Positions 8,759-43,991 of a DNA stretch of 64,000 bases are shown here, in pieces. How positions within the stretch are numbered: position 1 is the stretch's first letter; each line of letters opens with the position of its first letter. Where the stretch lies: assembly GCA_949152475.1 (NCBI GenBank), contig OX424556.1, positions 58,920,451 through 58,984,450 of the forward strand. Reading direction: 5' to 3'. The translations under genes and the position numbers were made by a program. Under the pieces are notes generated by a model. The model had not been told where the DNA came from. It was given only the letters and a program-made list of their open reading frames with translations, and did not search any database. Source of the stretch: Terebella lapidaria (Eukaryota; Annelida; Polychaeta; Terebellida; Terebellidae).

Positions 8759-8780
8759 GAAAGTGAAAAGCCAAGACACG

Positions 8781-16957: not shown

Positions 16958-17498
16958 ATGGCAGGTATGTAAACATGTACATGTGAAGTAATTTTCACCA
17001 ATGTTGGGAACTGCTCAAGTATGTATTTTACACCAGTCATGTAATCACAGTAGAGACATTCAAGCGATCATCGGACGAAGTTCAAATCTGACATAAAGAT
17101 TTATGTACCATATGTTATTATTAATGTCGTGAAGTTATTTTGAGAAAAAATCAAGTAAAGCTAGTTTATTAAAACTATAAATATAATCCTTTCAAATATC
17201 AATCACATGCAATTGTTAAACAAGATGATAGCTTTATAATCACACACAACTTGTCAAAGATGATTCATTACATAATTAAACTTTTTCAGACGTAGAGGAT
17301 ACACCCCGATCCATTGAGGCCCCCGGAGCACAGTTCATTGGGCTGGGGGCTCTGTGCTTTCTGCTGCTCGAGTTCATCTTTATTCTGGCGATGGATATCA
17401 TCAATCTGAGGAGAGACGCTCGAGTGATCTGTCGGACCCGATACAACAAAGTACAGGACATATCTAGTACCAGCCAGGCACAGTCACAGCACCATTAG
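16958..17498 (+). CDS. Small single-pass membrane protein, copy A (71 aa)
   Basis: Two coding exons, 16958-16964 and 17290-17498. The first is only ATGGCAG, followed by GTATGT. The 325-bp intron ends CTTTTTCAG and the reading frame continues exactly in phase. The product starts MADVEDTPRS. Residues 17-40 form one hydrophobic helix containing a Glu at position 30. A basic stretch (NLRRDARVICRTRYNK) and a Ser/Gln/His-rich tail follow. The positive charges after the helix predict an outside N terminus and a cytosolic C terminus, with no cleaved signal. The exon is nearly identical in copies B and C while the introns differ in length, which argues for selection on the protein. I do not recognise the family and assign no function. 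ATTAAA near 17572 may be the poly(A) signal. The Polinton inserted about 440 bp downstream. Confidence 0.75.
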
Positions 17499-17932
17499 CC
17501 AGGACATACAACACTGCATCTTGATGATTTATCTCGTTTATATGTCTGCGATACATGGAAATATCACTTGATTAAAGATTTTGACATGTGAGCATGGTCA
17601 CCATTTGATCCATATCCCTTGACAGTCGTGGAAATAAGTCACACGTTTCCCATGTATATACCTTTTTAAAACTGTCTTTCGACTCAATTTCCCTTAAATG
17701 GTTTATTGTGCTCCTGCTGTCAACAATTCATTGTTCATAACTAGTATAATCTTATAGTTTGAGTATTTGTATAAGATCTATGTTCCATCTAAGTTATGTA
17801 TGACGAATATACACGTATTTGTAAAAAAGCCCATAGGTGACATGCGCAGAAAAATTGGTATCTTTTTTCAACATTTTACCAATCACACTTTTCTGTGTGG
17901 GAACATGGAATCTTTAGGAGCTACCACATCAC

Positions 17933-17938
17933 GTTTGC
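17933..17938. repeat. Polinton target-site duplication, left
   Basis: GTTTGC lies immediately outside the left terminus and is repeated exactly at 36402-36407. Six-base duplications are typical of Polintons. Confidence 0.92.
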
Positions 17939-19690
17939 AGTAGTATAGTATGGGCTAGGTACCCGCCAGGTGGCGCTACGGTAGTCGCTAGGGGGCGCAA
18001 TGGCGTCATAACGTTTGCCCCGCACTCACCAGGTGGCGTCATAACGTTTGTCCTATAGTCGCTAGGTGACGTCATAGCGTTTGCCCCTAGACTCGCCAGG
18101 TGGCGTCATAGCGTTCGCCATATACTCGCTAGGGGTCTCATAAGGAACCCTATAAATGCTAGGTTGTGTATCGTAACGTAAGGGAACCTCATACTCATAA
18201 CGTTTGCCCTATACTCGCTAGGGGTCTCATAAGGAACCCGTTAAATGCTAGGAGTGTCATAGCGTTTGCCCCTATACTCGCTAGGGGTGTCATAAGGAAC
18301 CCAATAAACGCTAGGTTGTGTATCATAACGTAAGGGGACCTAGTACTTGCTGTGGGCGTCTTAAGGAACCCGTTATATGCTAGGAGTGTCATAGCGTTCG
18401 CCCCTATACTCGCTAGGGCCATCATAAGGAACCCGTTAAATGCTAGGAGTGTCATAACGAGTGTCTTTTACTCGCTAGGGTCGTCATAAGGAACCCAATT
18501 AATGCTAGGTCGTGTATCATGACCTCGTACTGGTCATACCCATAGTCATGATGTGTTTTTTTATACTGGCGGCCATCTTGTATGACTGTCAACGTTGTGC
18601 TATCGGTCGCCGGGTGGCGCTCCACCTGTTTTTTATACGCTAAACTCGCGCTCATTATAAAGGTATCCTGCGTACAAACGAATGTAAGGTGCGTGCAAAT
18701 AAAGGTATCTAGCATGCAAATAAAGGTAAGGCGCGTGGTTATTAGGCTATCGCGCATGCGTATCCAGTATCCTGTATGCTTAATAAGGTCTCATGCATGC
18801 ATGCAATTATCTTATTTTTTCGCTTTGTTACATATTCGGGTCGTTTCCCGCTTAAAACCAATATTTTTATCGTTTAAAAAAAAACCCCGATTTGTGGAAA
18901 TTTCGTTCGAGCATTTGTCTCGGCGTGTTTAATCACATTTTTTTCTCCCACGTTTCGGCACTTTTCGGGCGTTCATCACCAATGCTATTTCAAAAGAGTT
19001 TCATTTGACGCATTTCGTGAACTTGGGTTTGTTCAGCTACCGCTTTTTGTATTTCGGCTGATTTTAATGTAGATACGGTGCAAGGTACTGTCTTATATGT
19101 ATAATATTAGCATAATAAACAAAAGTATATATGAAAAAAAAGGTGTATCCATTACTACTTCTATATATTAGAAATGCACAATACAATACGATCGCAGTGG
19201 ATGGCCATGTTTGTTCGTTTTATTCTGCCCCGAGCTTCCATCCTTTTTAAATAATATTTTTAATAAAGTTGGAAAGTGCATATAGGAATGGGTTTATATC
19301 AGCTTTGTCATCTAATGAGTCCGTTTGTACGTCTAAAATAACTTTAATTTGTTTGTCAGTACTAAAAGACTTGAAGTTCATCATATAAGTATTAAGTTTT
19401 TGAAATAAACTATTTCTTTCTTGTAAATATCCTGGACAGTCGATTAAGAAATGCTTCGCAGATGCATTCGTATTGTACCGCTTTTCGTATCTCGGCAGAC
19501 TTTAATGGAATTACGCTGCCTATGTATATTTGTGCTACTGTATCCTATTTTTATATAGAGGGTGGAAATGATCGATTATTGGTAACAAGACATCCAAGTG
19601 CGGGAGCTAACGGTCGCACATTCACCATACATTCATTCTTCAAAACGTGAAGTAAGTAACAGGCGCAGCTGGATCCCCTCCCGTGTCAAG
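17939..19690 (+). repeat. Polinton left terminal inverted repeat
   Basis: About 1.75 kb, inverted copy of 34644-36401, near identical throughout and losing similarity just inside GGATCC. The outer 600 bp is built of short direct repeats; the inner part is AT-rich. Open frames within it occur in both copies and are shadows of the repeat. Confidence 0.95.
17960..18540. repeat. Subterminal tandem repeats of the left end
   Basis: A mosaic of degenerate 25-60 bp units, alternating GGCGTCATAACGTTTGCCC, CTATACTCGCTAGG and TCATAAGGAACCCGTTAAAT. It repeats inverted at 35800-36380. Several units contain TGACGTCAT. Such arrays could be binding sites for the element's own proteins, which is inference. 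Confidence 0.85.
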
Positions 19691-21035
19691 AAAACCTCAC
19701 CGTAACTACTGATGACCGTTCACCAACAACGGTAATAATTTGTCATTATGTAGTCCAAAAAACACGTAAAATAAGCAGGGCATGCAGCCTACTACGTCCT
19801 AATCATTTGTCTAGATCAGTTGTAAACGTATGATCCTTCAACATGTTTAACGTGAGTCTTTTTGTCAGCCGTGTTTTGTAAAACACGTGAAAACATACAA
19901 CAGAAAATACTTGTATGGAAACATACATGTAGCATCCTAGTTCTAGCTAGCCTCTAGTTCTAGCCTCCACAACAAGATCTAGTATCGTGGCTAAGGCGTG
20001 TTCCTCCGAATATGGTCTGACAAATTTTTTCCAAGATAGGATTTTACGAAGTGAATCTAGAACACCTTCATTATACCAAATGTGATGAAAATAAAGAATT
20101 ATATATAATAACTTATAGCGCGGATATGAGGGGTGAGCCCACTATCACCATTATATAGGAATTATTACGAGAACATAACGATTTCACATGTGGTTCAACC
20201 ACCAGAGGCAATGTGTGTTGCGTTATTATTTTACTTACTTCGTCAATAACCATTGCAAAGAACAAATTTGAGCTGTGTGAATATTTGCTGAGACCAAGAC
20301 TTTGTTTGATAATTCTGAATAGTATTGTTCGGACAATCCTGAATTCTGATTGGCTCAACCTAAAAAGGCCTGGTCCAATCAGTGCAGGTTTGGGAATAGG
20401 CAACCTCCCGCATTGTCTTACCTACATTCCAAGGCTGTCTTAATTATATACGGGCATGTTAACGGGTGAATGTATAAATTCTAAATAGCCACGATAAAAT
20501 TAAACATAGGCTTTTCATAGGCTGTGCGGTCTCAGTATTGCTGTAGTTTTCACGACCGACTTATATACATGTCACAATTGGCGGTTCGGGGTAGAATATA
20601 ATAACTATTTCACGTATAACACCCAAATAATGAAAACATATATACACGAATATATAATACGAGATTTAAAATTGATTGGTTTATGTCCAATATAGATTGT
20701 CAGGATAAATATTTAACTCTTCTATTTTTGCGATTTATTATACATTTCCCCTCAAGATCGTATAAATTTTCTTTAAATTCTAATATTGTTGTTCTCTCTA
20801 TTTTAAGCTAATTTTTATATTAAATTTTCTTTTCCCCATTTACATTCATCATAATAGACAAACGAGTATATGCCATTTCAATGTTTTTTTTATTTCACAG
20901 CACACATCTACAATATTTACAATTTCTACACACAATCTACACTACAATTTTTTTGGGTTTTCGCAATTTAAAATTTTTTTTGGTTCTCTAATCTACGCAT
21001 GCAATACACCTATATTTACAATGGGAAATACACCA
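19691..21035. other. Left internal non-coding part of the Polinton
   Basis: No gene is seen between the left terminal repeat and the integrase. A pair of opposed CCAAT boxes (GATTGGCTCAACC and GGTCCAATCAG, about 20347-20382) lies here. The region next to the integrase is very AT-rich and may hold its 3' end signals. Confidence 0.5.
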
Positions 21036-22136
21036 TTACACAACGTCGGAAGCTTTGATCCAGGAATTATATTTTTTGGGCCAGTTGAGCCATTTAACGT
21101 AGAGTTCTTTATTTCGTCCGCGTCCCCTGGTCTTCAGGACTTTCTCCACTTTGAAGGCCCGGTCTTTATCCAACGTCACCGGCTGTAATTCCTGCTCGTA
21201 GAAAGTGCCCTTCACTTCGTCTCCGCCGTAGTCTGTGAGCTCGTAAATGGGTAGCCCATCTCTCCACCAGGCCTTGTTGATGGTGAACACCTCCCCCGTC
21301 CATTTCTGATCGTACTCGCGATCGAAGAGTTTCCGCAGGTAGGAAATACGGACTTTTTCTCCGACTTTGAAAGCGAACTTTTTCTTTTTGCCTTTCTTTT
21401 TGTCCTTCAGGAAAGGTTCCACGTACAGTTCTTCCCACACTCTCGTCTCGTTCTTTTTGGAGACGGCCGCCGGTTTCATTTTGATGCTGCTGTGGTACGT
21501 CTGGTTGTAACCTTCAACGATCTTGTCCAGTTTTCCGACGTATTCCAAACCGTTTTGATGTTGGAATATTTTCGTTATCCTGGACTTGATAGTTTTTATC
21601 CAGCGTTCAACGTAGTTCGCCTTGACTTCATTGTAGGTCACAGAATGCAGCACGTTGTGTTCCGCGAACCATTTCTTCATCCCCGCGTTCACGAATTCGC
21701 CCCCGTGATCCGTTCGAATTTTCACAGGTCTTCTGCCCTTCGCTTTCAGGAGTAGGGAGTCGAATCCTTTGACGACGTCCGCGGATTTTTTGGATTTCAA
21801 GGGCACGGCCCACCCGAATCTCGAGAAGACGTCTATGGTCATGAGCACGTAGCGAACTCCGTCGTTTTCCGGGGTGTACGCCGTCATGTCCATCAGATCC
21901 GCGTCCCATTGGGCGTCTATTTTCTCCACGTAGACTCTGTTCCGTTTAAACTTGCGGACCGTCCTCCTATGCATGGTGTAGACGTCCTGGGACTTTAACC
22001 ACGTCTTGATCTTCTTCATGGACAAGACCCTCTTCCCCTCAGCTCTCACCGCTTTGTACAAGGCCCGAGGTCCGGAAAAACTCCCGGCCTTCCCGGGGTC
22101 GTAATAGATGGAGGTTAGGTAGTCGTCTACGTTCAT
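21036..22136 (-). CDS. Polinton integrase with chromodomain
   Basis: Retroviral-type (rve, DDE) integrase that would insert the element, 366 residues from the ATG at 22136. The catalytic core has an Asp near residue 80 (WDADLMDM), Asp143 (TDHGGEF) and Glu177 (NYVERW). An SH3-like region follows, and a C-terminal chromodomain-like segment (about 325-366, with ELYVKWLNW), a known feature of many Polinton integrases and thought to guide target choice. An upstream in-frame ATG at 22205 is possible. I prefer 22136 because it overlaps the stop of the preceding gene by four bases (ATGA). Confidence 0.93.
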   Translation of the reverse strand: MNVDDYLTSIYYDPGKAGSFSGPRALYKAVRAEGKRVLSMKKIKTWLKSQDVYTMHRRTVRKFKRNRVYVEKIDAQWDADLMDMTAYTPENDGVRYVLMTIDVFSRFGWAVPLKSKKSADVVKGFDSLLLKAKGRRPVKIRTDHGGEFVNAGMKKWFAEHNVLHSVTYNEVKANYVERWIKTIKSRITKIFQHQNGLEYVGKLDKIVEGYNQTYHSSIKMKPAAVSKKNETRVWEELYVEPFLKDKKKGKKKKFAFKVGEKVRISYLRKLFDREYDQKWTGEVFTINKAWWRDGLPIYELTDYGGDEVKGTFYEQELQPVTLDKDRAFKVEKVLKTRGRGRNKELYVKWLNWPKKYNSWIKASDVV

Positions 22137-22378
22137 AGTTTCTTCTTGGATATGGCGGGGGCGGGTAGCATGTATCCCAGACAGCTGGCCAACAAGGTGC
22201 TCCAAAGCGTTTCGTTCTCCCGGTCTCCCGTGCTCAAATTGTAGATGCAGGCTACGATGACGGTGAAGACGATCAGGGCCTGGGTGAAAAAGACGATTTC
22301 CGACTTCGGTACTCTAGATTTTCCGAATGACCAACGAGATCCTTCTCCCGACGATGTTGACGCTCCCTCGTCAGCCAT
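22133..22378 (-). CDS. Small Polinton membrane protein (81 aa)
   Basis: One strong hydrophobic segment (about residues 29-46, FFTQALIVFTVIVACIY) after a Ser/Gly-rich N terminus, with a second weaker one near 60-72. A small membrane protein beside the capsid and integrase genes is common in related elements; its role is unknown. A TATATAAGG box lies about 35 bp upstream of the ATG. The stop overlaps the integrase ATG. Confidence 0.7.
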   Translation of the reverse strand: MADEGASTSSGEGSRWSFGKSRVPKSEIVFFTQALIVFTVIVACIYNLSTGDRENETLWSTLLASCLGYMLPAPAISKKKL

Positions 22379-22417
22379 AGTGAATGCGCGAAATGTACGA
22401 GTGCGGGCCTTATATAC

Positions 22418-23701
22418 TCAGGGGGTTTCCACGCTCACGTTCCGAGCCTTGTCGATTTCCATCATAGCCGGAAACTGGCCGTACGCGATCAGTGTGGTCG
22501 CCTCCGGGAGAGCCTCGGCAAACTTGATCACCAATCTGGTGTGACCCTTCCTGATGAGGGGGAAGGCCTTGTCCCGGGCCACTTCGAAGACGTAGACGGC
22601 GTATCCCTTGTCCAGTCCCTCGTAAGAGACGTAGTTGTAGTCACTCCTCGCCTTCCCTTTGTTCAAGGCTTTGGAAACTCCCACGTACTGCCTGTCGGAG
22701 TAATTCGGCTCGAACGGTGGTCCCGGTTTGGACTGGCCCTGCACCAAGAAATCCATGTAGGTGAGCTTCATGTTGTCAAAGTTGAAGGGATTTTTCTGGT
22801 AATGTCCGTTGTAAGCGGCTCCCGAAACCAGTCCGACCATCAGTCTCGCGGGCACGCTGTCCTGGAAAACGTTGTCGGCCGTCCATGTGAAACTTCCCGC
22901 CGGTATGTTGAACGCTTTCACGTCCGACCTCATGAAGGGATACAGAGCGTTGGTGTCTTTCAGGCGTTCCGAGTGACCCAGCATAACGCCCGGTGTCATG
23001 GAGTTGTGCGGAACGGTCAAAGTCGCATCCCGTATGTCCACGGCGTATTTTCCCGAACCCTCTTTGCACATGAGGACGAAGGCGTTGGTGTGGGGGAAGA
23101 GTTGTACGTCGACGGCCACTCCGTCCAGTAGCATCCGGTTTTGCTGCAGAATGTCAACGAAGAGAGGTCCCTCTAGCACGACTTCCCGCCCTTGTTTCGT
23201 CCAGAGCCAGCGAACGGCTAGACCGCTATTCCCGAGAGGCAGGCTGGGATCCGCGACGTCCATGTGCTCGGGCCTGTCCTTGATGAAAAGCTGATTCTCT
23301 ACTGCGGGTCCGTACCCCGTCAGCGAGTCTAGCAAGGCTTTGTAGGGGTAGTTGGTTCCCACGCTACTGGTAACGAGTTTCTGCTGTACCTTGACGTCCA
23401 CTTGTCTGAAGAGGGAGTTGGCCGCGTTATTCACGAAGGCCACCTTGTCCTCGGCTTTCACGGCCGTCCCGTCTTCTTTGACAATCTTCAGGGTCAGTTT
23501 CAACGTGATGTTTTTCAAGTCGATGTACTCCGCCGTGGATCCCATCAAGCTGAAGGCTATAGGAGAACCCTTGGTGATTTGTCCTACGGGCCTGTATTCC
23601 CTGTAATGGACCGCGCTCACACCCGAATCCACGGACGGGCGGTTGAACAGGGACATGTCCATCGTACTAGACTCTTTCGAATTCTCGAACATGAAAGCCA
23701 T
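22418..23701 (-). CDS. Polinton major capsid protein, likely double jelly roll
   Basis: 427 residues, beta-rich, positioned with the penton-like protein and the packaging ATPase as in Polintons. It resembles the widespread invertebrate family annotated as F54H12.2-like. The assignment rests on length, neighbours and remembered family likeness, not on a motif I can prove by eye. The ATG lies two bases after the stop of the upstream 81-aa frame, so the two may share a transcript. Confidence 0.8.
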   Translation of the reverse strand: MAFMFENSKESSTMDMSLFNRPSVDSGVSAVHYREYRPVGQITKGSPIAFSLMGSTAEYIDLKNITLKLTLKIVKEDGTAVKAEDKVAFVNNAANSLFRQVDVKVQQKLVTSSVGTNYPYKALLDSLTGYGPAVENQLFIKDRPEHMDVADPSLPLGNSGLAVRWLWTKQGREVVLEGPLFVDILQQNRMLLDGVAVDVQLFPHTNAFVLMCKEGSGKYAVDIRDATLTVPHNSMTPGVMLGHSERLKDTNALYPFMRSDVKAFNIPAGSFTWTADNVFQDSVPARLMVGLVSGAAYNGHYQKNPFNFDNMKLTYMDFLVQGQSKPGPPFEPNYSDRQYVGVSKALNKGKARSDYNYVSYEGLDKGYAVYVFEVARDKAFPLIRKGHTRLVIKFAEALPEATTLIAYGQFPAMMEIDKARNVSVETP

Positions 23702-23703
23702 GG

Positions 23704-23949
23704 TTAAAAAGCTTTCTTCCTCTTCTTGACCAGAACTTTGGCCCTCTCGACTGTCTGCTCCGTGGGTGAAACCAGTTTCACTTGGACGGGTTCAGTCTGT
23801 GTTCCGGGCTTCTCGGAGGGCTTGAGGGGCACCACTTTTTTGTCGCTTTCCGTCCTTTTGAAATGTTCTTTCCAGGCTTCCAAGTCGGGTTCGTATCGAA
23901 CCAGGGGCATGATGCGGGAGGTCCGTACCCTTCGACGTCCGGGAGGCAA
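23704..23949 (-). CDS. Small basic Polinton protein (81 aa)
   Basis: Highly charged, with Arg-rich start (MPPGRRRVRTSR) and Lys/Arg end (LVKKRKKAF); probably a nucleic-acid-binding or capsid-associated protein, which is inference from composition. A TATATAAGG box lies about 28 bp upstream of the ATG. Confidence 0.65.
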   Translation of the reverse strand: MPPGRRRVRTSRIMPLVRYEPDLEAWKEHFKRTESDKKVVPLKPSEKPGTQTEPVQVKLVSPTEQTVERAKVLVKKRKKAF

Positions 23950-23976
23950 ATGAGGGCTTTTCGGGGTTGTTCGTCC

Positions 23977-24402
23977 TTATATACACCTCGGCCGTCTGAG
24001 GATCAGAGTACATTCGAAATTTCCGCTTCGAACGTTTAGAGGTTTCAAATTTTCGTCCGTCAAGTACAGGTGAATTCTGCTAACGGTCTCGGGCTTGACG
24101 TCTACGAAATCCGGAATCGGGTTGAGATATCCGCCTCGGGTATCCAGCTTTTGGAGAACGGGGAGTTTTCTTCCGGCAATCAAAGATTCTTCGCACAGGT
24201 CGCAAAATAGGTACAGGGAGCTGTTCGCTACACCCAGGCTATAGTCCGCTCGATAGAGTCCCAGTTCCCAGCTTCCTCTCAAATCCAGAGGTTCGGGGAG
24301 TTCCGCGATAAAGTCTGTTATTTCGTTTTGCGGGTGGAAGTTTTCCGAGTCTTTGGAGGACAGGTAAAAGCGGTGTCGATCTTTACCCATCGCCCGTTCC
24401 AA
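23977..24402 (-). CDS. Polinton penton-like minor capsid protein
   Basis: 141 residues, beta-rich, starting with MERAMGKDRHRFYLSSKDS. The phrases FIAELPEPLDLRGSWELGL and IHLYLTDENL are typical of the single-jelly-roll penton family of Polintons. It would form capsid vertices. Its start lies inside the end of the upstream Lys-rich frame. Confidence 0.75.
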   Translation of the reverse strand: MERAMGKDRHRFYLSSKDSENFHPQNEITDFIAELPEPLDLRGSWELGLYRADYSLGVANSSLYLFCDLCEESLIAGRKLPVLQKLDTRGGYLNPIPDFVDVKPETVSRIHLYLTDENLKPLNVRSGNFECTLILRRPRCI

Positions 24403-24557
24403 GTCTTCTTAGTTTCCTCCTTCTTTTCTGAGGGCTGCTCCGTTTTCCCTATGGAGAATTTCCCCTTCCGCTGTTTCCCGATGGTCTTCTTCGTTTTCTC
24501 CTTCTGTTCCAGTGACTGCTTCGTTTTCCCGATGAAGATTTTTTTCGTGTACTTCAT
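24318..24557 (-). CDS. Lys-rich Polinton frame (79 aa)
   Basis: Low-complexity, Lys/Thr/Glu-rich with a repeated IGKT(K/E)QxxExKE(K/E)TKK pattern. Its ATG overlaps the stop of the 92-aa gene by four bases (ATGA), which supports translation. It overlaps the penton-like gene by about 85 bp, which weakens the case. A DNA-condensing role is only a guess. Confidence 0.45.
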   Translation of the reverse strand: MKYTKKIFIGKTKQSLEQKEKTKKTIGKQRKGKFSIGKTEQPSEKKEETKKTWNGRWVKIDTAFTCPPKTRKTSTRKTK

Positions 24558-24832
24558 AGCCCGAGCAACTCGTCTTTGTAGGTGTCCAGTACTTTGAGAA
24601 GACGACTGGCGTATCTCCTCACCAGACTCCTCTTATACCTCAGTGTGTGGTTCTGCTTTCCGAGATGGGCGATGAATTTCTGCTGTTGGCCGAGGTCAGC
24701 TAGCCTGGTCAGGTTGTAGGCGACTTCCACCAGGATACGGGTCTGGTCCGGAGTTACCGTCCGTAGGAGAGCTTTCTGTTGGTCCTGTGGTGTGGTGAGC
24801 AGGAATTGTAAGAAGTCCTTCCCCTCCGACAT
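24554..24832 (-). CDS. Polinton protein of unknown function (92 aa)
   Basis: All-helical looking, starting MSEGKDFLQFLLTT, with a basic middle (YKRSLVRRYASRLLK). The upstream in-frame extension overlaps the ATPase gene and is rejected as the start. A TATAAATAG box lies about 40 bp upstream of this ATG. Confidence 0.65.
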   Translation of the reverse strand: MSEGKDFLQFLLTTPQDQQKALLRTVTPDQTRILVEVAYNLTRLADLGQQQKFIAHLGKQNHTLRYKRSLVRRYASRLLKVLDTYKDELLGL

Positions 24833-24873
24833 CCTCGAGTCGAATGAAGTATTCTCACGGCGACCACCCCTAT

Positions 24874-25488
24874 TTATAGGGGGACGTAGGCCACCTCTAC
24901 CTCCCTGGGAAACACGTGTCCGAACAACTTGCGTTCCGAGGAACTGTGCGGGCTGAGATCCACCACCAGATAGTTGTAAGGTTCCCGCATGCAGTCTTGG
25001 TAGGCTTCCGTCAGAGTTTTCCCCAGCCCTATTTGACGTCCAAGGTATTGAATCTGGGAAAAGTCTCGAGGATTTTTGAACAGGACGAGGTAGTGACAGT
25101 TGAGGCTGATGGTGCGAGCGCATTTTCCTTGGTGAAACATATTCTGATTGATGTAAATCACCGTGATGTTCAAGTGGTGGGACCCCCGAACGAAGAGTTT
25201 CTGTACTTCCTCGCTCTTGACCACGGCGTCCATGAGGTCGTCGAGCACTATGAGAACGGGGGATCCGTCCACGAATCGTTCCACATCAGAGGCGGAAGGC
25301 AGGTCTTTATGGAACGTGACGTTCATGTCCTCGAAAGCAGGCTGCCAGACACCGTAGCAGTACATGACTTTGGTCGGTGGAGGACTGAGGAGAACGCGGC
25401 GATGCCTCAAAAGTTTCTTCACCCATGACGTTTTCCCGCTTTGGGTTACTCCGGACAAACAGATGGTGGTGGGACATACGAACTTCAT
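24874..25488 (-). CDS. Polinton genome-packaging ATPase (FtsK/HerA type)
   Basis: 204 residues. Walker A GVTQSGKTSW at about 13-22 and Walker B VLIVLDD at about 78-84 fit the A32-like packaging ATPase that pumps DNA into capsids. A TATAAATAG box lies about 45 bp upstream of the ATG. Confidence 0.9.
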   Translation of the reverse strand: MKFVCPTTICLSGVTQSGKTSWVKKLLRHRRVLLSPPPTKVMYCYGVWQPAFEDMNVTFHKDLPSASDVERFVDGSPVLIVLDDLMDAVVKSEEVQKLFVRGSHHLNITVIYINQNMFHQGKCARTISLNCHYLVLFKNPRDFSQIQYLGRQIGLGKTLTEAYQDCMREPYNYLVVDLSPHSSSERKLFGHVFPREVEVAYVPL

Positions 25489-25534
25489 GACGGTCTGAAT
25501 GGTAAATGAGCTGCGGTTGGCAATGTCTCCCTAT

Positions 25535-25852
25535 TTATAGGAAAAGGGACGTCAACGTTTCCATGACGTCTTTGAACAAGCTGGGGTATTCGTACCGAGA
25601 GTGTGTGAAACAGAGCCATTTATAAACCGTCTGGCTACTTTCGAATATACGGTTGTAGCACTTCATCACGGGACGCCTGATTTCCGGGTGGGCTCTACAC
25701 ACATCTCTCGCGAAAACCTCCAAGACCATCAGACGTTGCGGCGTTACTTTTCCGTCTTCGAATACACCTCTGGCTATACCCTCGAAAGCCTCCAGGGTGT
25801 CGACTCGGGCTACTATCAAATCCCAATCGGCCGGTTTCACGAAAGCGTCCAT
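25535..25852 (-). CDS. Polinton protein of unknown function (105 aa)
   Basis: Helical, with a Cys/His/Arg-containing middle. No family recognised. A TATATAAGG box about 50 bp upstream of the ATG supports expression. Confidence 0.6.
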   Translation of the reverse strand: MDAFVKPADWDLIVARVDTLEAFEGIARGVFEDGKVTPQRLMVLEVFARDVCRAHPEIRRPVMKCYNRIFESSQTVYKWLCFTHSRYEYPSLFKDVMETLTSLFL

Positions 25853-25924
25853 TCTCCACGAAGGTCGGGCTCCGAATGAGGCGGGTCTCGCCGCGGACCC
25901 CCTTATATACCCCAGGATCCCTCA

Positions 25925-27260
25925 ATTTTTTGTACATTTAAATACAATGTCATTGAACGATCTGAAAAGTACTCTAATTCGAACATTTTTCTCTCTGGTT
26001 CGCCTCAAATATTCCCTGGTTTGACCGATTTTTATTATGGTTTGCTCAAAATATTTTCTGGTTTGATTGTTTTTTTTTCTGAAAAACGCGTTTCCCATTT
26101 AAATACAACGTTATTGAACGATCCGAAAAGTGCGCTCATTCGTTCAAAATATTTCCTAGTTTGACAATTTTTTTTTCCCGAATTGCATAAAATATTTCCT
26201 GGTATGACCGTTTTTTCTTCTGATTTCCCCGAAATATTTTCTAGTTTGATATTTTGTATTTAGCTAAAATGTTCTATGGTTCGATCATTTTCGTACATGT
26301 TACCCTTAATTTTAACTGTTTCCACCAGCTTACTCGTGTATCCAACATATGTGTTTCCCGCAGTCTGTACACGTAACGAATTACCATCTATTTTCCTGCT
26401 AACTGGATAATTAATACTTCGTTTCTCCGATTCGCTTACTTTTTAATGACATTTCAAAACACCGTTTATGAACGATCTAAAAAGCGTTCTCATTCGAGCA
26501 TTTTGTCTTCAGGTTTGCCTAAAATATCTCCTAGTTTGGTCCTTTTTTCTTCTACTTCGCGCAAAATAGTTTCTGGTTTGACAGTTTTTATTTTGTATAA
26601 TCGCGTTTCCCATTTAAATACAGTGTTATTGAACGATCTAAAAAGCAGTCTCATTCGATCATTTTTTCTTCTGATTTACATAAAATATTTTCTGGTTTGA
26701 CCGTTTTTTCTTCCGATTTGGCTAAAATATGCTCGAGTTTGACCGTTTTTACCTATCATTTCGTAAATGTTACCCTTAATTTCAACTGTTTCTTTCCCCG
26801 ACTGGTGTATTTAACATAATTCTGTTTCTTGCAGTTTGTACACTTAACGAATTTTCATCATATTTCTCTGCTAACTGGTTAATTAATATTTCGTCTCACA
26901 AAATTTGCTTAGGGTCGATAAAGAATGATTTCCATTTCAGAACCACGATCTAGAAAAGCGCTCTCATTCGTTCAAAATAATTCCTAGTTTGCCCGTTTTT
27001 TCTTCTGATTTGCATAAAATATCTCCGGGTTTGACCGCTTTTTCTTCTGCCTAGTTCAAAATATGTTCTGGTTTGCCAATTTTTTTCTATAAAATACATT
27101 TCCGATTCAAATACAATGTTATTGAACGATCTAGAAGGTTTTCTCATTCGGTTAAAATATTTCTTAATCTGATCATTTTTATTCTGATTCGCTTAAAGTA
27201 TTCCTGCTTAGACCGTTTTTTCTTCTAGTTCGCTCGAAATATTTCCTATCCTTTTCTTCT
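25925..27260. repeat. Degenerate AT-rich tandem repeats inside the Polinton
   Basis: A roughly 40-bp motif (AAAATATTTYCTGGTTTGAC then TTTTTTCTTCTGATT) recurs more than a dozen times. It is arranged in larger units marked by ATTTAAATACA..TTATTGAACGATC near 25936, 26097, 26612 and 27106 and by a CTGCTAACTGG segment near 26396 and 26869. Non-coding. Confidence 0.8.
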
Positions 27261-27853
27261 CATTCGATCTTTTCAATTCACCCGTAATAAACGGAAACAT
27301 TTTCGAATACCGTATGCTTTATTGTGTACCTACTGAGCAAAACACGACACATAATATAATTACATAGATTATTTCGGTGACAAATATTTTTAGCGAGATA
27401 CAGGAGCTCGCACTAAAATAAATATATATACAAGTACTAAAATAGTCTAATCTATGTAAACGGCAAAGCGTTGCGGTCGTCAATGAATTCATCAAAAATG
27501 ATGGTAAACACTGCATATTTACACACACACACAAATACTACTATATTTTGTGATCAAATACAAGCGTTTTCAAAGGAGATCAGTTTCGGTTTTTCTCCAA
27601 TCATTAATTTTTGCATTGCTCTAATTATTACAATTTTAATTTAAATAATACAATTTTAATTAAATAATATATACTTTCTTAACCAATATTGTATGTACAT
27701 ACATAATATTGAAGCTGTGTAAATTAATCAACCCTTATTTACAATCGTTATGTATCTACAATTTACATGTACAATAATATGCTTAGACACGCGGTATTCT
27801 ACAATGTGTAAATTGATCACCTGTGTAAATAGGTGTATTGCGAGGCGATGAAA
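27261..27853. other. AT-rich gap downstream of the polymerase
   Basis: No gene seen. It probably holds the 3' end of the polymerase transcript. Confidence 0.45.
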
Positions 27854-34180: not shown

Positions 34181-34214
34181 CACTCGCGACCGACATGCCT
34201 CGTCCGAATCCTCT

Positions 34215-34345
34215 CACTGATTGGGCCCGAACTATACGGGTCAACCAATCAGGAAATGTTAATCGCTGATATGTGTCTGAACCGGGATTGGACGGTGGGG
34301 GGCGGAGTGTGGAGGTGGAGGGCGGCGTGTGGATATATAGACCTA
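34215..34345 (+). promoter_or_regulatory. Possible rightward promoter in the Polinton
   Basis: Several CCAAT boxes in both orientations (GATTGG about 34219, CCAATCAG about 34245, GATTGG about 34287), a GC box (GGGGGGCGGAG) and a TATATAG box (about 34333) are arranged like a + strand promoter. No + strand gene is recognisable downstream, so the transcript, if any, may be non-coding. Confidence 0.4.
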
Positions 34346-34643
34346 CCGGCCGTATTTTCGATCGACATTTTAACACTTCTTTAGGAGATTGGCAATAGCC
34401 AGAGTTATCCGGATTTGGGCGTAGATGACACAACACTCTCGTTAAAATCCACATAGATCTGATGGAGAAGCCCTAGGTGAATGTATAGTCGGATTATTTT
34501 GGTATGAGTTAATTATTAATTGTTGTCAAAGGATAAAATAAAGATTGTGAGACTTTACATGCGTGCCGTTTAAGCCCGTATTGAAAAAAATTACTGACGG
34601 GTTGGTGCACGGTTACCAGTGGTTACGACTACGAGGATGCGTA

Positions 34644-36401
34644 CTTGGCACGGGAGGGGCGGGGATCCAGCTGCGCCTGTTACTTACTTCACGTTTTGAA
34701 GAATGAATGTATGGTGAATGTGCGACCGTTAGCTCCCGCACTTGGATGTCTTGTTACCAATAATCGATCATTTCCACCCTCTATATAAAAATAGGATACA
34801 GTAGCACAAATATACATAGGCAGCGTAATTCCATTAAAGTCTGCCGAGATACGAAAAGCGGTACAATACGAATGCATCTGCGAAGCATTTCTTAATCGAC
34901 TGTCCAGGATATTTACAAGAAAGAAATAGTTTATTTCAAAAACTTAATACTTATATGATGAACTTCAAGTCTTTTAGTACTGACAAACAAATTAAAGTTA
35001 TTTTAGACGTACAAACGGACTCATTAGATGACAAAGCTGATATAAACCCATTCCTATATGCACTTTCCAACTTTATTAAAAATATTATTTAAAAAGGATG
35101 GAAGCTCGGGGCAGAATAAAACGAACAAACATGGCCATCCACTGCGATCGTATTGTATTGTGCATTTCTAATGTATAGAAGTAGTAATGGATACAACTTT
35201 TTTTTCATATATACTTTTGTTTATTATGCTAATATTATACATATAAGACAGTACCTTGCACCGTATCTACATTAAAATCAGCCGAAATACAAAAAGCGGT
35301 AGCTGAACAAACCCAAGTTCACGAAATGCGTCAAATCAAACTCTTTTGAAATAGCATTGGTGATGAACGCCCGAAAAGTGCCGAAACGTGGGAGAAAAAA
35401 ATGTGATTAAACACGCCGAGACAAATGCTCGAACGAAATTTCCACAAATCGGGGTTTTTTTTTAAACGATAAAAATATTGGTTTTAAGCGGGAAACGACC
35501 CGAATATGTAACAAAGCGAAAAAAATAAGATAATTGCATGCATGCATGAGACCTTATTAAGCATACAGGATACTGGATACGCATGCGCGATAGCCTAATA
35601 ACCACGCGCCTTACCTTTATTTGCATGCTAGATACCTTTATTTGCACGCACCTTACATTCGTTTGTACGCAGGATACCTTTATAATGAGCGCGAGTTTAG
35701 CGTATAAAAAACAGGTGGAGCGCCACCCGGCGACCGATAGCACAACGTTGACAGTCATCCAAGATGGCCGCCAGTATAAAAAAACACATCATGACTATGG
35801 GTATGACCAGTACGAGGTCATGATACACGACCTAGCATTAATTGGGTTCCTTATGACGACCCTAGCGAGTAAAAGACACTCGTTATGACACTCCTAGCAT
35901 TTAACGGGTTCCTTATGATGGCCCTAGCGAGTATAGGGGCGAACGCTATGACACTCCTAGCATTTAACGGGTTCCTTAAGACGCCCACAGCAAGTACTAG
36001 GTCCCCTTACGTTATGATACACAACCTAGCGTTTATTGGGTTCCTTATGACACCCCTAGCGAGTATAGGGGCAAACGCTATGACACTCCTAGCATTTAAC
36101 GGGTTCCTTATGAGACCCCTAGCGAGTATAGGGCAAACGTTATGAGTATGAGGTTCCCTTACGTTACGATACACAACCTAGCATTTATAGGGTTCCTTAT
36201 GAGACCCCTAGCGAGTATATGGCGAACGCTATGACGCCACCTGGCGAGTCTAGGGGCAAACGCTATGACGTCACCTAGCGACTATAGGACAAACGTTATG
36301 ACGCCACCTGGTGAGTGCGGGGCAAACGTTATGACGCCATTGCGCCCCCTAGCGACTACCGTAGCGCCACCTGGCGGGTACCTAGCCCATACTATACTAC
36401 T
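34644..36401 (-). repeat. Polinton right terminal inverted repeat
   Basis: Inverted copy of 17939-19690. The outer end is CTATACTACT. Subterminal direct repeats occupy about 35800-36380. Confidence 0.95.
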
Positions 36402-36407
36402 GTTTGC
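36402..36407. repeat. Polinton target-site duplication, right
   Basis: GTTTGC, identical to 17933-17938. Confidence 0.92.
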
Positions 36408-37084
36408 ACATAGAAACTTCAAATCTACCACGTTTGCATGTGAACACATAAAGGCCTCCACGTTTGCAAATGGAAAGATTTCAATCAATCAAAGCATTTA
36501 GGTGAAATATTTCTATTTGGACACTTGAAAGCTCTGAAAGTTTCCACACGTGATCAGATGACACCTGTACATATGTGTGAATGCAATCGCCTGTACTGTT
36601 TTCATGGGAGAATGTGGTAGCCTCAATGTTTCCACACGCGAACATGGAATCCTAAATGATTTCTTGTGATAGCCTAATCAACCATGATAGTGTTGAATGC
36701 TTCCACATGCAAACGTCCAATTAATTTTCCAGAAAAGTGTTCTGGGCTTATCACCTGTGGGCTTCTGTATGTGTGTGATAGTTGGTGGTTGAGTTTAGGA
36801 TATGAACACGAATCTGAATAAATACAATCATTTGTGCTATCCTTAGGCTGTTATTCGTTCCGTTTTCTGTATCATGGTGTTGGTCTATATCATTTTCATG
36901 AAACATTCTGTAGAATGTCTAAGTTGAAGATATTTCCATAAGCTTGTTTCGCTATTCGCATTTATAACAATACTTCGATTCTACAATGAATGAATGATGA
37001 TGTTTGAATTACACTTTACGATGTTGATTTGTTGTTAAAAGGACCTTCCAACACATGAATCAGTGAACTGATAAAAATGTAAAC

Positions 37085-37257
37085 GCTCTACCATAGCAAT
37101 TGACTACCAGTGTAAAAATATATAACCACAGAGCACGATTACAATTTTCATCAGGCCTACATGTATGACGTCATCGGCTGATACAAAACACGGATGAGAT
37201 TGCTGGGATTACGACCCATTGCTTGATGATGGATTTCTGGAATCAATAAGCGACAAG
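37085..37257 (+). promoter_or_regulatory. Conserved TATA/CRE promoter and untranslated exon, upstream of copy B
   Basis: AAATATATAACC (TATA, about 37115) is followed by TGACGTCA (37166-37173), then a conserved stretch (GATGGATTTCTGGAATCAAT) ending CAAG at 37257 before GTATAC, a good splice donor. The same order recurs at 40985-41126 and 47903-48035. It precedes the coding part of copy B by about 1.8 kb, which suggests an untranslated first exon. No coding frame is conserved in it. Confidence 0.5.
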
Positions 37258-39079
37258 GTATACACAAGTTATTTCATGCTTTGTTTGGGTCTGGGAATTT
37301 GTTAATCTTGTTCATACTTCTCATCTGTCATGACATAAAAGATGGGAGTGCGCATTGCCTTCATCTATATATATTACTTTAGGGTGCATCACCTTGCAAA
37401 GTCGATTAAAGTATTTTCGTTTTCAATATTTGGAGCCTAAAATGTGTATTTATCGAGAAATTTAGGATACATTGAGAGATTATATTTATATCTCGAAATT
37501 ATAATTGAAATATCAAACATATATTCGTGATCTCAAACTTAATGTAAAAAATCTAAAATTAAAAAATTCACAATATTGAAATTCCATATTTATTTTGGAA
37601 TGTGAAGGACATACACTTCTTTTAAAAAAAAAAATTCATGTGTGATAGCCATGTGATCTTGAGTTTGATGATATCATATTTAACACAGGAGACACATCTC
37701 AATGCGTGATTTTATCGACCTCAGCAATTACATTGTGAATTCAAGCTGTATGAGTTTCGTTTTTCATCACCCTGCTTAAAAGCATGTACAATCACAAATT
37801 GAACATTATCTGGAACATTATTGAAACCAAGCCGTATAACTGTTTTTTTCGGCAGTAATGTTCCATTATATTCAGAACACACTGGGTATCTATCTACTGT
37901 GAGTACGCCTATCTCTATAAATGACATGAAAAGATTGGACATTGAAACACACATAAAATAATTATTCTGTGAACAGCTCTTCAAATATTATTTTGAATCA
38001 AAAGTAGATACTGGTGTTGATATGAAATATTTGATAAGCAAATTGCTTCAAGTTAGTTCTCACTGTATTCGATAGGTCCCAATTTTGTTCGTGTGCGTCC
38101 TTAACTTGTTTATGATATCGAATCGCTATCGTATATGGTCGTTCTCAGCATATATTTGCTCAAATCTACCCCCTAGGAAGATCTCGTTCATCAGTAGAGT
38201 AGTGTTTACTAATAATTCGCCTTGGAGCCTGTACTTATTTTTGCATAATATTTTGCAAAATTGGAAATTATATTCTAACGTGCAACAGGATGAATGGCAT
38301 TCCTGCTGAACACATCACATGCATGTCGAGGTGTATACCTCTGATGATCGATATTAACCTATCTGTAACTTACTTTTCAGAAAATATCGTTTAATAGCCA
38401 CTAGAGGAACCAAAGACTGGTATGAAATATAGACTGCTTATGTCAATAAATGATGAACCAAACTTTCCTATTGACCAGAATCAAAACAAAACCCACCTTT
38501 TCCATTCACCTGTGAACAGCTTTCAGAATAGATTTTTGTGTGCTCTTTCGTGGGGAAGATTGATTCGTTTAGCACATGCAGTGTTTTATAGAGCAACAAA
38601 AAACAAGATCCGCCTAATGAAAATTCATCGTTTCTATTTTTTCAAACATCCGGTTATCTGCGCATGCCTTGAGACTGATTCAACCATCACCCGGCAAACT
38701 ATCGTGAGTAGCTCTGGCGCCGAGGGGCTGTAACTCGCCACATGACCCCCACTGGCATCATATGCTGTCGGTAATCACTTTCCGTCAACTGCGCATTAAG
38801 CCAGCAAGACAATAAACTGTGTAGTCACTGAACTTACGATATGTTGTAAGGGTAAATAGCGACAGCCATAAATCAATGTTGCTCCTTTGTCAGTGGATAT
38901 AATCGCGTGGTAAAACCCAGAGTTGTGCTTGATAGATACGACAGAGACTTGTACCTGTGAATCCTGAACCACGTGACTTCTGTAGGAGATTGGATCTAGT
39001 GCGGAATGACAAGTCACTACACTCTGGGGATTTGATTCATTTTGGTAGGATTTAATGCACGCATTTTTGCACAGACAAA

Positions 39080-39710
39080 ATGACAGGTATGTAAACATGT
39101 ACATGTAAAGTAGTTTTCACCATTGTTTTCAAATGTGTATCTTTACACCAGTCATGTAATCACAATAGAGACATCCAAGCGATCATCAGACGAAGTTCAA
39201 ATCTGATACATGAATTTATATTCTATACGTTGCTATTAATGTCTTGAGCGTATAGTTTGAGAAAAATTAAGGTGTGTTGACTTTTTAGAATCATTGGTAA
39301 ATAGTATATAAATAGTTGGTTGATTTCCTAAACAATATATTAGCGCAAAATAGAAAATATGTGTTAAACTAATTTAATAAAACCATAATTTTTTCCTTTG
39401 AAATATAAATCACCTGAAATTGTTAAACAAGATGATAGCTTTATATCACACATAACTTGTCAAAGATGATTCATTACATAATTAAACTTTTCCAGACGTA
39501 GAGGATACACCTCGATCCATTGAGGCCCCCGGAGCACAGTTTATCGGGCTGGGGGCTCTCTGCTTTCTGCTGCTCGAGTTCATCTTTATTCTGGTGATGG
39601 ATATCATCAATCTGAGGAGAGACGCTCGAGTGATCTGTCGGACCCGATACAACAAAGTACAGGACACATCTAGTACCAGGCGGACACAGTCACAGTCAGA
39701 GCAGCATTAG
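39080..39710 (+). CDS. Small single-pass membrane protein, copy B (73 aa)
   Basis: Coding exons 39080-39086 (ATGACAG before GTATGT) and 39496-39710, with a 409-bp intron ending TTTTCCAG. The phase is the same as in copy A. Residues 3-59 match copy A except for Ala to Val near position 37; the second residue is Thr and the tail differs (SSTRRTQSQSEQH). An in-frame TAA lies 21 bases upstream of the ATG, which supports this start. Same predicted topology: outside N terminus, one helix with an internal Glu, basic cytosolic tail. Function unknown. Confidence 0.77.
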
Positions 39711-40374
39711 CCAAGATATTCAAAACTCTTCCTGGTGATATCATTTATTCAAGTCTGTGATACACGAAACTGTCAGTCGATTGAATCTTTGAACAGATTG
39801 AATACACACATCCAACATTTTTAAAATAGGGATACCTGTATCTATTGTTGATTCAAATTCAAGTAAATAATTCATTATTAATTTATGATTTTTATGTTTG
39901 GTGACATTCATGGGATTGAAAAACCTGTTTCCGACTGATTTTCAACTCAATTGCCCAAAAATGGTATTATTGAGTTCCTACTGTCACCAATTCATTGTTC
40001 GTAATTGATATATTTGTATAGTTTGAATGTTTGTATAATATTTGTTTTCTATCCAAATTATGTATGCGGAAGCCCTAAGGTGGCATGCGTGGGGAAAAAA
40101 TTGTGCATACATGGAAACTTTGGAGGTACCACGTTCACACATAGAAATTCCAAGTCTACCTTGATCAATTGCAGACAAATTTTAAGCTTCCATGTTTGCA
40201 TGAAGATTTGTAGTAATCAAATTCGCACGTGGCAAAAATTAGATGAAAGTGAACTATTTTTACATGCGAAAGTGGCAGCCCTGGAAGTATTCACATGGGA
40301 GCAGGTAGCCTTAACTGCTTGTATGTGATATAGTTCCATATGTGAACACAATAGCAATTGCGAACATTATAGCT

Positions 40375-40612
40375 TTAAATGTTTCCACGTTCGAAAGTTG
40401 TAGCATTGAATGTTTCCACGTGTGAACGTTATAGTGTTGAATGTTTCCACATGCAAACGTTATAGTGTTGAATGTTTCCACATGCGAACGTTAGAGCTTT
40501 GAATGTTTCCACGTGCGAACGTTATAGTGTTGAATGTTTCCACGTGTGAACGTTATAGCATTGAATGTTTCCACATGCGAACGTTACAACATTGAATGTT
40601 TCCACGTGCAAC
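40375..40612. repeat. 31-bp minisatellite with E-box core
   Basis: About seven units of TTGAATGTTTCCACRTGYG plus AACGTTATAGTG, period 31 bp. Many units contain CCACGTG. The related but irregular sequence in unit A (36420-36720) shows that the array expanded in unit B. Confidence 0.85.
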
Positions 40613-40974
40613 TGTGCTAACATGATGTGCATTTTACATACAGGATTTTTGTTCGTGTTAGGGATAATGAGCTGTATGTGACAGTGAGCATGGGGAGTGA
40701 TAATTTCTATCATCCTTAGATTGTTATTCGTTCCGTTTTCTGTGTAATGGTCTTGGTTTATGTTTTTCTCATAAAGCATTCTGTAGAGAACCCTAGTTTG
40801 AGATATTTTAGCTCGGCTCGTCATTCGCATTTATAACAATGTTTCAATTTTACAATGGACAAATAAAGATGTGTTAATTAGGTTTTAGAGTGTTGTTGTG
40901 TTCTTAAAAGGAATTTTCAACAGATTACCCAGTGAAATGATAAAAATGTAAACGCTCAACCATAGCAATTGACT

Positions 40975-41126
40975 ATCAGTATAAGAATATATAATCACAA
41001 TGCACAATTACCATTTTCATTAGGCCTATATGAATGACGTCATCAACTGATACAAAACACGGATGAGGTTACTGGGATTACGACCCATTGCTTGATGATG
41101 GATTTCTGGAATCAATAAGTGACAAG
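40975..41126 (+). promoter_or_regulatory. Conserved TATA/CRE promoter and untranslated exon, upstream of copy C
   Basis: AATATATAATC (about 40986), TGACGTCA (41035-41042) and the conserved GGATTTCTGGAATCAATAAG stretch, with the donor GACAAG before GTAAAC at 41127. The coding part of copy C begins about 2.2 kb downstream. Confidence 0.5.
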
Positions 41127-43365
41127 GTAAACACGTTAATTCATGCTTTATCCGGGTTCAGGAACTTATAAATCTTGTTCACACTTCTAATCTGTCAGAT
41201 CACAAAAAAACGGGAGTGTTTATTGCATATTCATCTATATGAATTACTTTTGGGTTCATAAATTCACGAAATCGAATTGAGTATTTCGTTTTCAATATTT
41301 GCAGTTCAAAATGTGATTGCATGAGGTATTTATCGAGACATTTATGATACATTGAGAGATCATATATATATTTCAAAATATAATTAAAATGTCATAATTA
41401 TATACGTGATCTCACTTAAAAATTTGTATGACCTCAAATACAAAAATTTTGGTATATTGAATGTAAAAAATTGTGATCTCAAAATTAAATTTGAATTTGT
41501 CATCTAAAATTCAAAAACTCGCAATATTGAAATTATTTGTTTTTATATATAATTTTGAGTCTTGCGGAGATACATAATATTTTAAATTTCATGTGTGATA
41601 TCCATGTGATCTTGAGCTTGTTGGTATCATATTTAACACATCAGACACTTCTCAACATGTAATCTCATCGACTTCAGCAATTACATTGTGAATTCAAGCG
41701 GTATCAATTTCGTTTTTGAACACCCTGCTTAAAAGCACGTGTAATCAGAAATTGAACATCATATACGATTACCATTACCGGTATAACTGAAGTTTTTAGG
41801 CACTAATGTTCCTTTAAATTCAGAACACATTGGGTATCTATCTACTGTGAGTACGCCTCTGTTAATGACATAAGACGTTTGGACATTGAGCCGCAGATAA
41901 AATAATTAGTCTGTGGACAGTTTTCCAAACGAACATATCATGAGCAATTGTTCAAGTTAATTCTCACAATACTTTACATGTCCTAATTGTTCTTGTGCAT
42001 CTCTAACTTGTTTATGGTATGGAATTACTATCGTTTATGATCGTTTTCAGCAGATATTCGCTCAAACTACCCTCTAGGAAGATCTCGTTCATCACTAGAG
42101 TAGTGTATTCCAATAATTCACATTGGAGCCTGTACTGGACACACTTCTGAGACAATTGATTGTCATATAACTTGGTGCTCTGAGCTGACACACAACATGT
42201 ACATTGATAACATCAGGTAAAATAACACAATTACATTTAGTGAAAAGTAGTTGAATAATCGAGATCACACTGCTGGTACTGAATATTAATACTTGGCTGA
42301 ACCGGAGATAAACCCTGAAAAAGTTGTTCTGAACATTGCCACTGTGATTGTGTACCGACCTAAAGCTGACATGTGTCGCTCCTACGATAGTAATGACTGT
42401 TGCGGAGGTCCATGCAGAGGTTGAAGTTTGAGGACCTGACCAACATTTACGTTTATACCGTGACCAACATTTGATAAACCATTAAATGATGTGCAACACC
42501 GTCCTTGAGATGACCATTGTGTGTGTACATAAGACAAGAAATATCATTCCTGCTGAATATATATCATACCATGCGCACATTTTTGTACAATTTTTCATCT
42601 GCCAACACAATGAATAATGTGTCTGGTATAAAAAATATAAAAGATTGAATTGAATTTTCCTGCAACTATCATTACCTAACTATTGGTGATATCAACAACC
42701 CTATTAGTTATGCAATAAACCTATAGTGTTGACATATGCTGATAAATCCGCATCTTCTGATCAAAACCAATTATCATTTCCAATTCACCTGTGTCAGATA
42801 GTCAATAGCTTCTCAGAACACATTTCTGTGTATTCTTTAGTTGAAGATTGATGCGTTCAATGCACGTGGTGTTCTAAAGAGCAACAAAAACAAGATTCAT
42901 CTAATGAAAATTCATCGTTTCTATTTTTTCGAACATCCGGTTATCTGCGCATGCTTTGAGGCTCATTCAACCATTACCGGCAAACCATCGTGAGTAGCTC
43001 TGGCGCCGAGGGGCTGTAACTCGCCACAGGACCTCCACTGGCATTATATGTTGTCGGTAATCACTTTCCGTCAACTGTGCATTTAGCCAGCAAGACAATA
43101 AACCGTGTAGTCACTGAACTTAGTATATGTTGTAAAGGTAAATAACGACCGCCATAAATCGATGTTGCTCCTTTGTCAGTGGATATAATCGCGTGGTAAA
43201 ATCCAGAGTTGTGCTTGATAACTACGACAGAGACTTGTACCTGTGAATCCTGAACCACGTGACTTCTGTAGGAGATTGGATCTAGTGCGGAATGAGAAGT
43301 CACTACACTCTGGGGATTTGATTGATTTTGGTAGGATTTAATGCACGCGTCTTTGCACAGACAAA

Positions 43366-43991
43366 ATGGCAGGTATGTAAACAAGTACATGTAAAGTAGT
43401 TTTCACCATTGTCGGGAATTTCCCAAGTATACCAGTCATGTAATCACAGCAGAGACATTCAAGCGATCATCAGGCGAAGTTCAAATCTGATACATGAATT
43501 TATATACTACACTTTATTAATGTCTTGAACTTAGTTTGAGAAAAATTAAGGTGTGTTGACTTTTTTAAATCACTGCCTAATAGTATATAAAAAAATTGGT
43601 TGATTTCCTAAACAATATATTAGCACAAAATAGAAAAATTGTGTTAAGTTAATTAAATAAAACCATAATCTTATCCATTCAAATATCAATCACCTGCAAT
43701 TTTTAAACAAGATGATAGTTTTATAATCACACACAACTTGTCAAAGATGATCCATGACATAATTCAACTTTTCCAGACGTAGAGGATACACCACAATCCA
43801 TTGAGGCCCCCGGAGCACAGTTTATCGGGCTGGGGGCTCTGTGCTTTCTGCTGCTCGAGTTCATCTTTATTCTGGCGATGGATATCATCAATCTGAGGAG
43901 AGACGCTCGAGTGATCTGTCGGACCCGATACAACAAAGTACAGGACACATCTAGTACCTGCCAGACCCAGGCACCGTCGAAGCACCATTAG
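43366..43991 (+). CDS. Small single-pass membrane protein, copy C (73 aa)
   Basis: Coding exons 43366-43372 (ATGGCAG before GTATGT) and 43777-43991, with a 404-bp intron ending TTTTCCAG, in the same phase as copies A and B. The N terminus is MADVEDTPQS; helix and basic segment are identical to copy A. The tail is SSTCQTQAPSKHH, so variation is concentrated after residue 59. An in-frame TAA lies 21 bases upstream of the ATG. Function unknown. Confidence 0.77.

Follow-up and report, generated by a model that had tools for sequence, protein, structure and literature searches.

Three tandem copies of a small gene predicted to encode a membrane microprotein in the annelid Terebella lapidaria

Gene copies and their surroundings

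We analysed a 64,000-nucleotide stretch of Terebella lapidaria DNA (the window), in which a first-pass annotation had placed three copies of a small gene on the plus strand, each beginning with ATG(G/A)CAG before GTATGT. All three copies were recovered exactly as described (Table 1). The frame was also said to continue in phase across introns of 325–409 bp, and an open frame into exon 2 was indeed found in 3/3 copies. The joined coding sequences measure 216, 222 and 222 nt in copies 1, 2 and 3, with a phase-1 intron in each, and all three predicted introns have the donor context CAG/GTATGT and a pyrimidine-rich acceptor ending in (T/C)CAG.

Table 1. Positions of the gene copies and of other features of the window
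Feature	Position	Strand	Remarks
Copy 1, conserved upstream block	16528-16957	+	putative promoter and 5' leader
Copy 1, upstream 9-codon ORF	16884-16913	+	MTSHYTLGI
Copy 1, possible 12-nt exon	16953-16964	+	ACAAAATGGCAG after acceptor-like AG; AG rank 243/7720
Copy 1, first coding segment	16958-16964	+	ATGGCAG
Copy 1, intron	16965-17289	+	325 bp, GTATGT...TTTTTCAG; acceptor rank 366/7720 AGs
Copy 1, exon 2	17290-17498	+	stop TAG; 71-aa protein
Copy 2, conserved upstream block	38649-39079	+
Copy 2, upstream 9-codon ORF	39006-39035	+	MTSHYTLGI
Copy 2, possible 12-nt exon	39075-39086	+	AG rank 192/7720
Copy 2, first coding segment	39080-39086	+	ATGACAG
Copy 2, intron	39087-39495	+	409 bp; acceptor rank 277/7720 AGs
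Copy 2, exon 2	39496-39710	+	stop TAG; 73-aa protein
Copy 3, conserved upstream block	42936-43365	+
Copy 3, upstream 9-codon ORF	43292-43321	+	MRSHYTLGI
Copy 3, possible 12-nt exon	43361-43372	+	AG rank 243/7720
Copy 3, first coding segment	43366-43372	+	ATGGCAG
Copy 3, intron	43373-43776	+	404 bp; acceptor rank 90/7720 AGs
Copy 3, exon 2	43777-43991	+	stop TAG; 73-aa protein
RING-NHL frame	8718-10568		flank of the array
Satellite elements, three related	12221-14307; 48482-50434; 51339-54048		CGT-rich microsatellite, then satellite arrays (134-bp, also 155-bp)
Inverted repeats of Polinton-like element	17938-19727; 34601-36402		~1.8 kb, 98.6% identity
Integrase-chromodomain frame	21039-22313	-	in Polinton-like element
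Minisatellite	40359-40609		31-bp units, ~8 copies
Inverted repeat	45609-45866; 46746-47006		~260 bp, 92%
Match to 5' part of copy 2/copy 3 units	47940-48298		71%
42-bp tandem repeat	55714-55929		5.1 copies, 98%
Ankyrin-repeat frame	62824 to window's end		flank of the array

The copy number is three. A protein search of the genome (761.6 Mb, 438 contigs) returned 3 matches at E ≤ 0.001, all inside the window, and the 437 bp ending with exon 1 had 3 matches in the same 761.6 Mb, which are exactly the three copies; these searches score only the top candidates, which here numbered 3 or 4 and were all scored. A candidate distant paralogue on contig C12 (E 1.26, 41% over 29 residues) was taken as a chance helix match and rejected. 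The units that hold copies 2 and 3 are alike beyond the gene at 74–80% (36839-37542 vs 40712-41419 and 37527-38235 vs 41473-42136), which is below the intron identity of 89% for this pair and of 86–87% for the other pairs. The gene body is more alike than the flanks, and this may reflect either constraint or gene conversion.

Copies 1 and 2 are separated by a Polinton/Maverick-like element of 18.5 kb with long inverted repeats at its ends, and most of the wide gap between them is taken up by it; two frames of the element other than the integrase-chromodomain frame had no match in the Pfam scan. The array is flanked by RING-NHL and ankyrin-repeat frames, and five other frames of the window scanned against Pfam gave no family at E 0.01. 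Rfam, run over the whole window, gave 0 matches at gathering scores. The window also contains three related satellite elements, two of which have ends that are 98% identical over 308 bp, and one of the three apparently breaks into the copy 1 unit in its upstream part. Other repeats are a minisatellite between copies 2 and 3, an inverted repeat downstream of copy 3 that is a possible fold-back element, and a 42-bp tandem repeat that is open in frame over five units. The stretch at 47940-48298 is perhaps the remnant of a fourth unit, or else a shared repeat.

Contig C438 of the assembly (15,973 bp) is a mitochondrial genome, with all of the following genes on one strand: cox1, cox2, cox3, nad6, cob, atp6, an AT-rich stretch, nad5, nad4L, nad4, nad1, nad3, and nad2 (cox1 was identified by its Pfam model, the others by reading translations); atp8 and the rRNAs were not found. 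Four features are described for annelid gene order: nad6/cob directly follow cox3, atp6 stands between cob and nad5, nad5 has changed places with nad4L/nad4, and nad3 stands between nad1 and nad2; for Clitellata, Maldanidae, and Terebellidae a control region is placed between atp6 and nad5 (PMC2639372). C438 shows all four gene-order features, which makes an annelid the most likely source.

Coding constraint and the predicted protein

Residues 3–59 had been described as almost invariant despite differing introns, and the alignment bears this out: replacements among the three copies fall at 2/57 positions (R9Q and A36V), against 55 variable columns of 303 in the intron. Further residue differences are found at residues 2 and 60 and in the tail after residue 63. 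With columns gapped in any copy omitted, the variable columns number 6/170 for codons 3–59, 8/39 for the rest of exon 2, 28/257 just upstream of the gene, 13/172 in the block before, and 44/92 after the stop codon. Exon 2 varies less than the intron in each of the three pairs (Fisher p 0.0003, 0.00003, and 0.0006). Counted by hand from the codons, codons 3–59 carry 5 silent changes over ~42 silent sites and 2 replacement changes over ~129 replacement sites (Fisher p 0.010, binomial p 0.013). By pair, the ratios of replacement to silent change are 0.08 (p 0.015), 0.11 (p 0.049), and 0.32 (p 0.25), the last being copies 2 and 3, which by themselves differ by 2 silent and 2 replacement changes and are not significant. 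The tail of exon 2 gives no sign of constraint (ratio 1.06 between copies 2 and 3).

The single indel in exon 2 is 6 nt long and in frame, and the intron indels measure 1, 2, 3, 8, 9, 10, 91, and 92 nt. Identity drops at the stop codon, from 94–96% in exon 2 to 65–67% after it. The 257 bp just upstream contain no indel in any pair, and since this block is also well conserved, conservation extends beyond the coding part. We also scanned the duplicated block blindly for ungapped open frames of at least 25 codons, a procedure that misses shorter exons and exons with indels; it yielded 29 frames for copies 2 and 3, 19 for copies 1 and 2, and 20 for copies 1 and 3, with 12 listed for each pair. The exon-2 frame, tail included, had a ratio of 0.50 between copies 1 and 2 (fourth lowest of 19) and 0.33 between copies 1 and 3 (third or fourth of 20), and it was absent among the 12 of 29 frames listed for copies 2 and 3. 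Lower ratios occur in other short open frames, for example 0.06 at 16484-16565 between copies 1 and 3, a frame absent among the twelve of 19 listed for copies 1 and 2. The coding case, a sequence-based one, stands on the combined evidence and not on the ratio alone: the silent excess, the in-frame indel, and the loss of identity after the stop codon uphold the earlier reading of a small protein-coding gene in three copies.

The earlier description of a helix carrying a Glu, followed by a basic stretch, agrees with the predictions made here. Hydropathy of the copy 1 product peaks at 2.35 over 21 residues, at about residues 19–40, which places Glu30 in the middle of the predicted helix; the net charge is −3 over residues 1–17 and +4 over residues 41–59. 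AlphaFold2, run on the exon-2 products as a set of three sequences only, modelled a single helix spanning residues 12–68 (mean pLDDT 75.9, pTM 0.42), with pLDDT of 94–95 at residues 21–40 of the exon-2 product. The basic flank of a membrane helix faces the cytosol (the positive-inside rule), and this would put the N-terminus outside or in the lumen and the C-terminus in the cytosol. The protein is thus likely an N-out/C-in single-pass microprotein. Glu30 may be a contact within the membrane, and the invariant YNKV may act as a tyrosine-based sorting motif (YXX-hydrophobic type).

No Pfam family scored above its cut-off. Matches were listed to E 10, though HMMER filters drop most matches above 0.1, and the sole model listed was PF08391 (Ly49 N-terminal region), with 13.8, 15.6, 14.0, and 15.4 bits against a cut-off of 31.5, all within residues 19–68. 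Membership in Ly49 was rejected on these scores, as the match covers the helix and basic part only and is probably compositional. Pfam includes models for Hemotin/Stannin, Phospholamban, KCNE, FXYD, and DAP10, and none of these profiles matched above the curated cut-off. PDB held no relative up to E 10 with copy 1 as query, PHROGs gave no match for any of the three exon-2 products at E up to 1, and the IMG/VR and GTDB scans yielded 29 pattern stretches each, 0 of them confirmed by tblastn; PHROGs, IMG/VR, and GTDB cover prokaryotes and viruses, and their result is therefore silent on other animals. Literature searches found no mention of peptide strings of the protein, nothing related on annelid orphan small membrane proteins, and, among the matches listed, none on point for tiny first coding exons. 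The first-pass statement that no known family matches is thus true for Pfam, PHROGs, PDB, IMG/VR, and GTDB; judged by sequence comparison, the protein is an orphan with respect to these libraries, and "unrecognised" applies to them.

The start of the gene and competing readings

To place the start, donors scoring at least 3 on an approximate matrix were sought over a span that begins 850 bp upstream of the ATG and ends 60 bp short of the acceptor. The donor after ATG(G/A)CAG scores 10.0 and is the sole one with a phase-fitting, ATG-open frame in all three copies; frames of this kind in one copy only are those at 16156 and 17041 (copy 1) and at 38331 (copy 2). The background sample comprised 14 stretches of 10 kb, read on both strands; of its 47 equally good donors, 13 had a frame of this kind and 1 had its ATG within two codons. 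Overlapping background segments of 430 bp held such a donor and frame in 104 of 6048 cases, which serves as a rough yardstick because the search at the loci covered a longer span. The copies form one tandem family, so the agreement of the three gene starts is partly a single observation. The 7-nt start is unlikely to have arisen by chance, though not proved by that alone.

The upstream region complicates this picture. Within 260 bp of the start there are five ATGs in copy 1 and four in each of copies 2 and 3, and those at −239, −204, −74, and −25 are common to all copies; the one at −25 is out of frame and overlaps the start. The upstream 9-codon ORF, present in all copies 74 bp before the start, has a purine at −3. 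TATAA at −182, CACGTG at −110, and GCGCATGC at −419 or −420 are also found in all three copies. An acceptor-like AG lies five bases before the ATG in every copy, within the top 2.5–3.1% of 7720 AGs. The claim of a 7-nt first segment therefore stands as to the donor, the sole common one that fits the phase, and the exact length of 7 nt within a longer exon is left in doubt because of this AG and the four shared upstream ATGs. An in-frame upstream extension of exon 1 was considered and rejected: it is open for 48 codons without an ATG in copy 1, and copies 2 and 3 have a stop as its ninth codon. Within 700 bp after the stop codon, AATAAA is found in no copy; ATTAAA occurs in copy 1 only and AGTAAA in copy 2, and copy 3 has none of the four polyadenylation-type hexamers.

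We consider it probable that the gene and protein as drawn in Table 1 are real, that is, a compact, tandemly triplicated nuclear gene for a membrane microprotein. The same protein might instead have its start codon on a 12-nt exon, ACAAAATG(G/A)CAG, the AG being joined either to a non-coding leader exon farther upstream or, by trans-splicing, to a leader. The ranks of that AG (243, 192, and 243) beat those of the exon-2 acceptors of copies 1 and 2 (366 and 277), not that of copy 3 (90), and a donor-like AGGGTAAAT (copies 1 and 2; score 6.2) or AAGGTAAAT (copy 3; 8.0) lies at −228, from which a splice would drop the shared ATGs at −204, −74, and −25 and keep that at −239. However, ~3% of all AGs score as well, and the 257 bp upstream are indel-free in every pair, unlike the intron, which suits an exon or a promoter better; we regard this arrangement as unlikely.

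Very unlikely, in our judgement, is a larger gene, such as one for a type I receptor, with further coding exons upstream; exon 2 would be its transmembrane/cytoplasmic last exon, and the 12-nt piece would be unused or an in-frame microexon. Last exons of this sort commonly follow phase-1 acceptors, the acceptor phase fits, and a 12-nt exon, as a multiple of three, would keep the frame. Yet each copy has its own unit; read upstream, the ATG frame runs into a stop as its ninth codon in copies 2 and 3, and the exon-2 frame closes between its fourth and seventh codons; and the genome holds no further exon-2 match at E ≤ 0.001, and one at E 1.26. Nor was a convincing further exon seen among the 12 frames listed of the 29 that are at least 25 codons long and open in both aligned units (36830-40120 and 40705-44230): among these 12, the five lowest ratios (0.20–0.36) belong to frames of 26–49 codons, of which one falls within the intron and one uses a different reading frame of exon 2. 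The 12 frames listed for each of the other two pairs held no convincing exon either. A recent non-coding or dead triplication with a frame open by chance would suit the few changes overall and the fairly conserved upstream block and intron, but not the silent excess, the in-frame indel, the sharp loss of identity at the stop codon, or the contrast between exon and intron, and it is hardly credible.

Possible role and comparison with known systems

In the compact gene that we favour, each unit would comprise its own upstream region of ~430 bp, the ATG(G/A)CAG start, and a final exon behind a single phase-1 intron. Its predicted product would have 71–73 residues, with an acidic N-terminus, a helix at ~19–40 with Glu30 mid-helix, a basic juxtamembrane stretch at 41–59, and a fast-changing tail. 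Such a protein could bind a larger membrane partner by its helix and serve it as a regulator or small accessory subunit, with Glu30 as a polar contact with that partner and YNKV directing its sorting; taken by itself, this mechanism is rather doubtful. A plausible reading, if short of probable, is that of a lineage-restricted annelid family of N-out/C-in microproteins, with 57 near-invariant residues, a buried Glu, YNKV, and a free tail, starting on a 7-nt piece or a 12-nt start exon and serving as a subunit of a receptor or channel complex.

Tiny first coding segments are in themselves not unusual, small genes with them are a known kind, and genes of this general kind are common; the general view is therefore unchanged. 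In annelids small genes are apparently poorly mapped, and the family, if expressed, would add an unannotated family of membrane microproteins to them, whose strictly kept helix and juxtamembrane sequence would speak for a conserved partner. The tiny start exon offers a clear test case for how such genes escape gene finders, and a 12-nt start-codon exon would drop most of the upstream ATGs.

KCNE channel subunits and the DAP10/DAP12 adaptors are small N-out/C-in single-pass proteins, the DAP types with an acidic residue in the helix. The Terebella protein is predicted to share this build, with an acidic helix residue as in the DAP types, whereas its sequence has neither an ITAM nor an ectodomain cysteine, and no Pfam match. 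Microproteins from smORFs are described as enriched in transmembrane motifs, with Hemotin, Stannin, and Sarcolamban among those named; Hemotin/Stannin (88 aa) occurs in Drosophila and vertebrates, Hemotin in early endosomes, and Sarcolamban/Phospholamban are regulators of the SERCA pump (PMC11475943). Unlike Hemotin/Stannin, the Terebella protein is shorter (71–73 aa), comes from a two-exon gene in a tandem triplet, and has no Pfam match, but both are short, have one transmembrane helix (a predicted one in the Terebella protein), and belong to a size class that has been dropped by annotation rules. From Sarcolamban/Phospholamban it differs in the Glu of its helix, in its basic, presumably cytosolic stretch, and in having no Pfam match, and the likeness would be one of working, as a small single-helix regulator of a large membrane protein. 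Spliced as predicted, the product stays below 100 aa, has its own ORF under constraint, and is predicted by hydropathy and AlphaFold2 to contain a transmembrane helix. The gene family is best read as a member of the known class of membrane microproteins, a class and not a homology family.
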